Source of the DNA: Pseudomonas tohonis
GTDB lineage: Bacteria > Pseudomonadota > Gammaproteobacteria > Pseudomonadales > Pseudomonadaceae
Assembly (NCBI RefSeq): GCF_012767755.2
Contig: NZ_AP023189.1
Location: 6,326,001-6,390,000, forward strand
DNA: 64,000 nt
Direction: 5' to 3'
Below are positions 15,479 to 61,158 of the stretch, in pieces. Numbering within the stretch: the first letter of the stretch is position 1; every line of letters starts with the position of its first letter. A program made the position numbers and the translations under genes. Below the pieces are notes generated by a model. The model saw nothing but the letters and a program-made list of their open reading frames with translations, searched no databases and had not been told where the DNA came from.

Positions 15479-15760
15479 AGTTCGTTCCTCGTGTGTGCCA
15501 AGTCCTCGGACGAGGATGTCGGGGGTCGCCGGGTTCCAACGCGGCACGGGACGAGTGTCGGTCGAGGATGAGCCTGGGGCTCGTGGCAGGTTTAGCTGCC
15601 CGAATGGGCACCGGTGACGCCTGGGTGAACTGCCGACCGCGCGCCAGAATAGCGCCGGGTGTCGAGTTGCTCAACAGCCGCCGGGCGAAGCGTCTGAGAA
15701 GACTGTAATCTTCTGCCATTACCCTGCTGGCGCATGCACGCCGGTCGCCGTGGACACGCC

Positions 15761-59692: not shown

Positions 59693-59716
59693 AAGCCCCG
59701 CGAAGCGGGGCTTTTT
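59693..59716 (+). terminator. Rho-independent terminator of aguBA
   Basis: Perfect 8-bp stem (aagccccg / cggggctt) with a 5-base loop and a T-run (ttttt), 19 bases past the aguA stop. Confidence 0.93.
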
Positions 59717-59772
59717 CATTCCGGCACAAGGCACCAGCTACCCATCCTTGTATCTCGACTAATACCTCCACA

Positions 59773-59935
59773 GGGGTAATAGTCCCCGACTGATCATCGG
59801 GGGAGGGGCTGGAAGTCGTATCCATCCTTAGGCCACGAGCCTGCAACGTAGATAGTGCTCCGCCCCTCCACACTCACTCGAACAGCCCGAACGGTATCCA
59901 GAGCCTCGAGCTCGCATTCACAAGGTTGGGCCGGG
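59773..59935 (+). ncRNA. Candidate bridge RNA of the IS110 element
   Basis: The non-coding left end folds into a 5' hairpin and two looped stems. The 5' hairpin is ccccga/tcggggg (59784-59789 / 59797-59802). The first loop is closed by an 8-bp stem ggaggggc/gcccctcc (59802-59809 / 59862-59869) and contains a small hairpin (aggc/gcct, 59830-59833 / 59839-59842) between two unpaired tracts. The second is closed by gccc/gggc (59885-59888 / 59928-59931). Stretches in the loops match the element's ends and flanks: 59847-59854 is complementary to 60961-60968, 59891-59898 is identical to 60957-60964, and 59906-59910 is complementary to 59754-59758. This is the layout expected of a target-binding and a donor-binding loop. 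Confidence 0.68.
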
Positions 59936-59976
59936 TGCAGTGATGATCGCGTCTGAACGGATCGAGAGGAGAATCC

Positions 59977-60948
59977 ATGCCCAGCGTCATCGGCATCGAC
60001 ATCGCCAAACACACCTTTGACCTCGCCACCCTGCAACCCAACGGCAAGTACCGCACCAAGGCCAAGCTGGCCAACGACAAAGCGGGCTTCGCCGTCTTGC
60101 GCGACTGGCTGAACAAACACAGCGAACCCGGAGCCTGGGTCGTGATGGAGGCCACCGGCATCCACCATGAAGCCCTGGCCGAATGGCTGTTGGAGCAAGG
60201 CTATCGGGTCTGTGTCCTCAACCCGGCACAAATCGCCCACTACGCCCGTAGTCAGTTGCAGCGGGTGAAGACCGACAAGGTCGACGCCAAGCTGATCGCC
60301 GAATACGGCGAGCGCCATCAGGACAGTCTGCGTCCCTGGCAACCCGAGCCCCGTGCCGTGCGGCGTTTGAAAGCCCTGGTACGGCGCCTGGAGGACCTGC
60401 GCGAAATCGAGCAGATGGAGCGCAACCGCCTGGAAGTGGCCGATGCCAGCGTCCAGGCCTCGATCCAGTCGGTGCTGGAACATATCGGTCAGGAGATCGA
60501 AGAGACCCTCAAGGCGATCGACGACCACATCGACAACGACCCGGATCTGCGCGGCAAGCGCGACCTGCTGACCAGCATTGACGGGATCGCCGACAAGACC
60601 GCCGCCCTGCTCCTGGCGGAGCTGGGCGACCCACTGCGCTTTGCCAACAGCCGCGCCGTCACTGCCTTTGCCGGGCTCAATCCGCGGCTGCAGGAGTCCG
60701 GGAACCACCGGGGACAGACACGTATCTCCAAGACGGGCTCATCGCGCCTGCGGGCCGGCTTGTTCATGCCCGCGATCAGTGCCCTGACGTACAACGAGGC
60801 TGTCAGGGCCCTGAGCGAACGATTGAGGGCGAAGGGCAAGACCGGCAAGCAGATCGTCTGCGCCGCCATGCGCAAGCTGCTGAGCATCGCCTACGGCGTC
60901 TTGAAATCAGGCCGGCCATTTGACGCAAAACTGGCCCTTGCTCACTAG
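59977..60948 (+). CDS. IS110-family transposase (DEDD recombinase)
   Basis: 323 residues. The N-terminal RuvC-like domain shows the DEDD tetrad: Asp8 ('GIDIAKHTF'), Glu58 ('VVMEATGIHHE'), Asp100 and Asp103 ('KTDKVDAKLIAEYG'). A coiled-coil middle (about 118-180) is followed by the Transposase_20 domain ('LTSIDGIADKTAALLLAELG' and 'ISKTGSSRLRAGLF', with serines 255-256 in the conserved catalytic-serine segment). The protein appears intact with no frameshift, and an aggaga motif precedes the ATG, so it may be active. It works with the RNA encoded in the left end. Confidence 0.95.
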   Translation: MPSVIGIDIAKHTFDLATLQPNGKYRTKAKLANDKAGFAVLRDWLNKHSEPGAWVVMEATGIHHEALAEWLLEQGYRVCVLNPAQIAHYARSQLQRVKTDKVDAKLIAEYGERHQDSLRPWQPEPRAVRRLKALVRRLEDLREIEQMERNRLEVADASVQASIQSVLEHIGQEIEETLKAIDDHIDNDPDLRGKRDLLTSIDGIADKTAALLLAELGDPLRFANSRAVTAFAGLNPRLQESGNHRGQTRISKTGSSRLRAGLFMPAISALTYNEAVRALSERLRAKGKTGKQIVCAAMRKLLSIAYGVLKSGRPFDAKLALAH

Positions 60949-60979
60949 AAATCAAGACGGTATCTACGAACCACGCCTC

Positions 60980-61092: not shown

Positions 61093-61114
61093 AGCCCCCG
61101 CATGCGCGGGGGCT
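61093..61114 (-). terminator. Bidirectional stem-loop after ssuF
   Basis: Perfect 9-bp arms (agcccccgc / gcgggggct) with a 4-base loop. On the minus strand it is 45 bases past the ssuF stop and followed by cgttcgttt, a weak T-rich tail. On the plus strand it is followed by cttcat. Probably ends the ssu transcript. Confidence 0.7.
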
Positions 61115-61158
61115 CTTCATGTCGGCACAAGGCAACTCACGGTTGTGAGAGCTGTGCA

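Follow-up and report, generated by a model that had tools for sequence, protein, structure and literature searches.

An IS110-group element of Pseudomonas tohonis with a predicted IS621-type bridge RNA gene in its left end

The window analyzed here, a 64,000-nucleotide stretch of the Pseudomonas tohonis genome, contains an IS110-type insertion element in which a long noncoding left end (228 nt) lies upstream of the recombinase gene and a short right end (15 nt) follows it, as is the layout of the IS110 group. The element and its borders comprise the following parts:

59740..59746, plus strand: left target ACCCATC (host DNA)
59747..59748, plus strand: left copy of the core CT, the border between target and left end; nine copies are alike inward of it and differ in their flanks, and the empty site of copy L005 (genomes G001 and G017) has a single CT
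59749..59976, plus strand: left end, 228 nt, shared by the nine copies; its initial TGTAT is the right-donor DNA
59977..60948, plus strand: IS110-type DEDD recombinase, 323 aa (Pfam PF01548 and PF02371; IS621 8wt6, E 2.9e-68)
60949..60963, plus strand: right end, the 15 nt past the stop codon, kept in relatives, which is partly built in by the search motif
60957..60963, plus strand: left donor ACGGTAT, within the right end
60964..60965, plus strand: right copy of the core CT, placed by the nine-copy comparison and the empty site
60966..60970, plus strand: right target ACGAA (host DNA)

A search of the genome (G000, one contig of 6.83 Mb) gives 11 matches to the element, of which nine are near-full copies and two are about 30 bases long. 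From core to core, eight of the nine copies measure 1217 bp and the ninth, L009, 1218 bp. Five copies (L002 to L006) are identical to that of the window, making six identical copies, while L007 and L008 differ from it at four bases each and L009 at 24 positions. The sequence common to all nine begins with the CT at 59747-59748 and ends with that at 60964-60965, and the flanks differ. A plasmid record with similar DNA is annotated just as "IS110 family transposase".

The related genomes G001 and G017 both have a clean empty site where L005 lies, ...GCGTCATCCACC-CT-ACAAAAGCTGTC..., with one CT. These single-CT empty sites (L282 and L283) indicate a dinucleotide core with no further target duplication. 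At the place of L003 in the same two genomes, the repeat is intact and ends in ACCCATC-CT-ACGAA, with diverged surroundings, and for L009 no clean empty site was seen among the matches listed from related genomes. At the window's own site there is no clean empty allele, because neither the element nor the target is present there in G001 and G002. The genome itself contributes 29 unoccupied exact CCATCCTACGAA repeats (0 for the reversed-pattern control), and the five that were read out are similar to the repeats at the insertions. ACCCATC is found at six of the nine copies and at two of these five unoccupied repeats (L015 and L016), the other three varying upstream of CCATC. The ends of the element are thus fixed by the clean empty site in two related genomes and by the unoccupied target repeats.

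An earlier note on this DNA, made from the letters alone, had placed the left core at the CT of 59754-59755 and had taken 59750-59754 as the left flank. This is seven bases too far inside, as TGTATCT (59749-59755) is invariant in all nine copies in the genome, though the preceding flanks differ, and is therefore part of the element, and the empty site puts the junction CT at 59747-59748. The left end of the element accordingly lies elsewhere than had been proposed.

The recombinase matches the Pfam domains DEDD_Tnp_IS110 (E 1.6e-30) and Transposase_20 (E 3.2e-22), with a marginal third match to WCX. Its best solved relative is IS621 (8wt6), followed by ISCro4 (9t56, E 6.7e-66). Residues D8, E58, D100, D103 and S241 align to the DEDD and serine positions, the first four by way of what we take to be the catalytic residues of IS621. 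The serine corresponding to S241 is named in the IS621 paper (PMC11208158).

Relatives were collected by scanning named genome contigs, from which the best 80 of 110 stretches encoding a relative were used, and by a family-wide search of 298 genomes, 33 of which gave matches at E 1e-40 or better and supplied further loci. After deduplication, 103 loci retained the N-terminus of the recombinase, and both ends were located in 97; the other six were dropped when the motif did not locate an end (the left end of L082, L158, L168, L174 and L175, the right end of L207). The 97 insertions represent 48 distinct left ends. The end-search motif, TTGTAT[CG]T and GGTAT then CT, is made of expected letters, so that it would not detect elements with different ends, and the constancy of the donor is partly built in, as is the count of TGTAT in 48 of 48 distinct left ends, which the motif contains. 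With this proviso, the donor is nearly constant across the 97 insertions and the targets differ. A group of four relatives at 46-47% might have been closer to IS621; L198, the one compared, matches IS621 at E 2.8e-60, more weakly than the window recombinase at 2.9e-68, and we therefore do not call these four IS621-like.

The targets are largely associated with palindromes. The core lies at the foot of a palindrome in 64 of 90 distinct sites with enough flank, compared with 3.2% after shuffling of the upstream sequence, where a palindrome is an exact inverted repeat of at least 6 bases with a loop of at most 25 and a 3' arm ending at most 3 bases from the core. Five of the six ACCCATC sites of this genome, the window's own included, do not count among the 64, as their arms are farther apart or absent. 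Insertion of IS110 elements at REP palindromes has long been known (PMC1525189, Results; PMC11208160, section 5). Beside the CT of L005, the flank that is left in the orientation of the element belongs to a repeat of about 100 bp (located by matches to query positions 1724-1834 of L005) with dozens of copies in G001 and G017, possibly a BIME-like unit. In the window, terminator-like hairpins at 59696-59733 and 61094-61134 flank the element, each followed by near-identical text (ttcattccggcacaaggca and ttcatgtcggcacaaggca). G002, which is without the element, also has both hairpins, the second with one base changed.

Within the left end, we resolve the following predicted RNA features:

59758..59783, plus strand: SL0, an extra hairpin upstream of the usual 5' stem-loop (77.4% of alignment cells paired; 6/8 pairs changed on both sides)
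59784..59942, plus strand: predicted bridge RNA core (model span), with covariation and a match to covariance model R1 at 183.9 bits and E 1.7e-45, the sequence itself being in the model
59785..59801, plus strand: SL1, 5' stem-loop (93.3% of cells paired; 3/5 pairs changed on both sides)
59802..59869, plus strand: target-binding loop, with closing stem 59802-59809/59862-59869 and inner hairpin 59830-59833/59839-59842
59871..59942, plus strand: donor-binding loop, with stems 59871-59879/59933-59942 and 59885-59888/59928-59931 and inner hairpin 59901-59904/59910-59913

This structure was counted on an alignment of the 48 left ends (A1), in which 90.2% of cells are paired (80.1% when shuffled) and 31 of the 44 pairs are changed on both sides. 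Cells changed on both sides number 227, against 70.7 in shuffled alignments and at most 72 in slid controls, where the structure favors itself somewhat because it was taken from the window sequence. The covariation score of 0.335 (0.170 shuffled) was reached by 0 of 500 shuffles, while the number of further pair types did not stand out (67 versus 62.5 shuffled, reached by 43 of 500 shuffles). In the target loop, helices 3 and 4 are 84.5% and 97.9% paired, with 6/10 and 4/4 pairs changed on both sides, helix 3 being counted as the closing stem 59802-59809/59862-59869 plus two inner pairs. Helices 5, 6 and 7 of the donor loop are 94.7%, 97.4% and 100% paired, and all four pairs of helix 6 (59885-59888/59928-59931) are changed on both sides. 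The earlier note had proposed that a two-loop bridge RNA is encoded in the left end of an IS110 element, and had named as closing stems helix 6 and the outer part of helix 3, each an exact complement in the window. Both show compensatory changes in homologs, every helix contains pairs changed on both sides, and the proposal is, by the sequence evidence, right in kind.

The support is uneven along the structure. The weakest pairs are in the inner half of SL0, where two pairs are unpaired in 24/44 and 33/44 left ends; elsewhere, 59812-59860 is unpaired in 16/48, 59874-59939 in 14/44 and 59802-59869 in 11/48. The outer pairs of SL0 are well kept, and the hairpin is mostly gapped in the four 46-47% relatives; it may be part of the RNA, an element overlapping the promoter or a DNA site. 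RNAalifold, run on the full alignment, did not predict the closing stems 59802-59809/59862-59869 and 59871-59879/59933-59942, and it grouped the target loop with the 3' arm of SL0; the explicit structure was counted instead.

Without the 46-47% group there are 44 left ends, and 31 of these went into model R1, which was then run against 16 sources. R1 recovers the window and seven relatives outside its training set (E 9.9e-7 to 3.7e-25), and finds no match in L168 (a copy that carries a stop codon and whose left end was not located), two element-free loci and five empty repeats. Genome-wide, the nine copies score at least 178.8 bits and the next match 18.7 bits. We looked for solitary bridge RNAs and observe none above 18.7 bits besides the nine copies, with two weaker matches at loci without a recombinase. 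Across 293 genomes of the order, R1 matches in 12, two of which (G000 and G077) supplied members of the model. Among 25 loci read from these matches, 21 have a recombinase, and three of the other four matches lie at contig ends. At gathering scores, Rfam gives no bridge-RNA family match in the whole window, so that no curated model confirms the bridge RNA. The two other RNAs that it finds there are the Pseudomonas sRNA P34 (12946-13326, minus strand, 68.6 bits) and the COG3860 RNA motif (15584-15639, minus strand, 64.3 bits). Across the predicted circle junction there is no strong sigma-70-like promoter pair; the best, TCGACT-17-AATAGT with 8/12 positions, is inside the left end.

In the two loops, we assign the following putative guides by layout and motif, the correspondence to IS621 numbering being made without an aligned IS621 RNA:

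59820..59828, plus strand: left target guide ATCCATCCT, pairing with the bottom strand of the left target and core; tracks its own flank in 20 guide classes
59848..59851, plus strand: right target guide GUAG, which the C at 59847 may extend; GTAG in 46/48 left ends
59852..59853, plus strand: target-loop handshake guide AU (AT in 47/48), which would pair with donor AT after strand exchange, a role taken from the IS621 paper
59891..59898, plus strand: left donor guide ACGGTATC, equal to the right end at 60957-60964
59916..59924, plus strand: right donor guide, discontiguous, with AU at 59916-59917 and CAAG at 59921-59924, the latter pairing with core CT and TG
59925..59925, plus strand: donor-loop handshake guide G, which would pair with the C at target position -1 after strand exchange

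The guide layout of IS621 is described in two 2024 Nature papers (PMC11208160, sections 6 and 7; PMC11208158), and the split right donor guide resembles A157-U158/C162-G165 of that RNA. Among the 48 distinct left ends, the left donor guide is ACGGTATC in 44 and ATGGTATC in four, and the donor of those four is AGATGGTAT; because the donor varies little, co-change of guide and donor is visible only in these four elements. CAAG is present in 48 of 48. The base that follows it is G, and target position -1 is C, in all distinct left ends except that of L097, which has C after CAAG and G at -1. This is a single case, and it is what the handshake pairing described for IS621 (PMC11208158, section 11) predicts.

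The earlier note had based its own map on four matches between the loops and the ends or flanks of the element, the letters of which are all as quoted, and two of the four hold in the relatives. Tract 59891-59898, matched there to the right end, holds as the left donor guide. Tract 59847-59854, matched there as the complement of 60961-60968, holds as the right target guide for 59848-59851; its complementarity runs into the right end because the 3' remainder is the handshake guide plus one base, 59854, whose match, to judge from the relatives, is due to chance (ATA 25, ATT 11, ATG 6, ATC 5 and AGA 1 in the 48 left ends). Once the element is inserted, donor AT, core CT and target AC adjoin at its right junction; CT-AC is read by the right target guide and AT by the handshake guide.

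The remaining two matches do not carry over. For the left target guide, the earlier note had chosen 59818-59822, which is identical to 59750-59754 and overlaps the guide at 59820-59828 in part, and for the right donor guide 59906-59910, which is complementary to 59754-59758. GTATC at the former position occurs in only 8/48 left ends, and the latter lies in a hairpin loop that varies in length and sequence (7/48 as in the window) while the donor is constant. As the left end had been misplaced by seven bases, with 59749-59755 in fact inside the element, both matches are coincidences. Taken as an exact map, then, this alternative does match letter for letter, but the empty site and the relatives have already refuted it, and we give it practically no credence.

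Evidence for a guide function comes from the left target. In 48 distinct guide-target pairs, the left guide agrees with its own target at positions -4, -3 and -1 in 48/48, at -2 in 43, at -5 in 42, at -6 in 37 and at -7 in 36, whereas position -8, outside the guide, agrees in 11/48. When the left ends are reduced to 20 guide classes, guides match their own targets at a mean of 6.54 of 7 positions versus 3.32 when swapped (sd 0.31, maximum 4.67), and 0 of 10000 swaps are as good. The match at -7 to -1 is exact in 61 of the 97 insertions. On the right side, tracking is weak: of the 65 distinct pairs, 63 have A at target +1 and all 65 have C at +2, and the guide agrees at +1 in 63 and at +2 in 64, where the letters hardly vary, and at +3 in only 35. 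The suggestion in the earlier note that the loop tracts of homologs would track their own flanks is thus borne out for the left target and only weakly for the right.

The clearest exception is found in L056 and six sisters (L057-L059, L196, L205 and L206; G010), where the guide GTCCACC lies beside targets such as GACCAAC, CGCCAAC and GCGCACC. In this group, the right target guide is CCCGTAG and the right target is ACGGGG in 6/7 and ACAGGG in 1/7; the longer right guide may dominate site choice. The guide GTCCACC is also seen in G017, in about a dozen copies of an 84% relative (L018, L050-L053, L148 and L209-L213), and the 11 sites read for it end in variants of TCCACC or CCCACC.

Similarity of guide and flank could also be secondary, arising from flank capture or from a chance likeness of the target repeats to the element. 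The target repeats do fall into few related families, some guides resemble several of them, and 36 of the 97 insertions are inexact. Against this stand the 20 guide classes, whose guides fit their own targets much more closely than swapped targets, the lean of the mismatches toward wobbles (17 versus 2, see below), which copying of DNA would not favor, and, as a single case, the handshake base of L097 that changes with target -1. We consider a by-product of this kind extremely improbable.

A further alternative is that the conserved structure mainly regulates the transposase gene, as a leader or through small-RNA control, rather than serving as a guide. The structure lies directly upstream of the gene, SL0 has no known guide role, and small RNAs of this kind are reported for ISPpu9 (PMC8450116). 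Regulation would leave unexplained both the tracking of flanks by the left target guide and the match of the donor guides to the element's own ends, although the two roles are not mutually exclusive. As the main function of the structure, we hold regulation to be very unlikely. We conclude, from sequence comparison, that this segment almost certainly encodes the bridge RNA of an IS110-group element of the IS621 kind, one that is active or was so recently.

The majority guide A-U-C-C-A-U-C fits the ACCCATC sites of six copies through one U-G pair at -6 (59821), and in L005 and L006, whose sequence is that of the window copy, the same guide fits ATCCACC through one U-G pair at -2 (59825). The genome has 78 unoccupied AYCCAYCCTAC sites (3 in the reversed control), namely 50 with ATCCACC, 20 with ACCCATC, 6 with ACCCACC and 2 with ATCCATC; the perfect match ATCCATC-CT-AC is thus nearly absent, with 2 unoccupied sites versus 20 and 50 for the two one-wobble sites. 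L009, a 98% copy in the same genome, differs from the window in four left-end bases, two of them in the guide (59820 and 59825), and its guide GUCCACC is an exact match to its own GTCCACC site at -7 to -1. In the family as a whole, the mismatches comprise 17 RNA-DNA wobbles, 2 reverse transitions and 15 transversions. The bias of 17/19 would have a binomial P of 0.0007 if the mismatches were independent, which they are not: 8 guide classes account for the 17 wobbles, GTCCACC alone for 7 of these, and the 2 reverse transitions come from one class, which also has two wobbles. Drift of guides from C to T would also favor part of the wobble mismatches.

The guide may be a wobble compromise, in which the U residues at 59821 and 59825 let one RNA read both ACCCATC-CT and ATCCACC-CT, a proposal for which we see about equal chances of being right or wrong. 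If it holds, IS110 elements would broaden or switch their targets by single-wobble steps. Tolerance of rG:dT pairs in IS621 has already been published, and natural reprogramming has been reported for IS110 and IS1111 elements (PMC11187229), and for this reason we regard the wobble guide as an illustration of known behavior with a testable twist.

By homology to IS621, the element would leave as a circle with the junction ACGGTAT-CT-TGTAT, and the left end would be transcribed into an RNA that binds the recombinase. The first loop would pair with the chromosomal site, the left guide with the bottom strand and the right guide with the top strand, across CT, and the second loop would pair with the circle junction, also across CT. 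The recombinase would then cut the top strands after CT, with the handshake bases taking up the exchanged strands. In the expected product, left target-CT precedes the element and CT-right target follows it, and most such sites are feet of REP-like palindromes.

This is an ordinary yet very clear additional IS110/IS621 bridge-RNA system, the mechanism of which is already published. With it, the IS621-type RNA-guided recombinases gain a well-documented Pseudomonas family in which many natural guide-target pairs can be read directly. These pairs show guide drift and switching between repeats, and they suggest which mismatches (wobbles) are naturally tolerated, which bears on the specificity of such systems as genome tools.

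Among known systems, the IS1111 group has its bridge RNA downstream of the gene, within a long right end, and also has subterminal inverted repeats of 7-17 bp; we rejected this assignment, as the noncoding region here is upstream of the gene and just 15 nt separate the stop codon from the core downstream. In ISEc21, which is of the IS110 type, the noncoding region upstream of tnp gives rise to a 74-nt target-seeking seekRNA (PMC11187229), for which target matches are described and a donor loop is not among the features given in the relevant part of that paper. In Pseudomonas putida, ISPpu9 and ISPpu10 target REP repeats at one constant position, with a direct repeat of 2 bp (PMC1525189, Results), and resemble the present element as Pseudomonas insertion sequences at REP repeats, a likeness of description. 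ISCro4 (PDB 9t56) is the second solved IS110-type relative, compared here by its recombinase. The closest comparison is with IS621 of Escherichia coli (PDB 8wt6). The present element differs from it in a clearly diverged recombinase, in its target (ACCCATC or ATCCACC, then CT, then AC), in the extra hairpin SL0, which is absent from the layout in the cited portions of the IS621 papers, and in having no clear junction promoter, where one is reported for IS621 (PMC11208160, section 5). It shares with IS621 a DEDD and serine recombinase, a bridge RNA from a long left end, a CT core and REP targets, and the guides agree in size and arrangement, with a 9-nt left target guide, a 4-nt right target guide, an 8-nt left donor guide, a split right donor guide and corresponding handshake positions.
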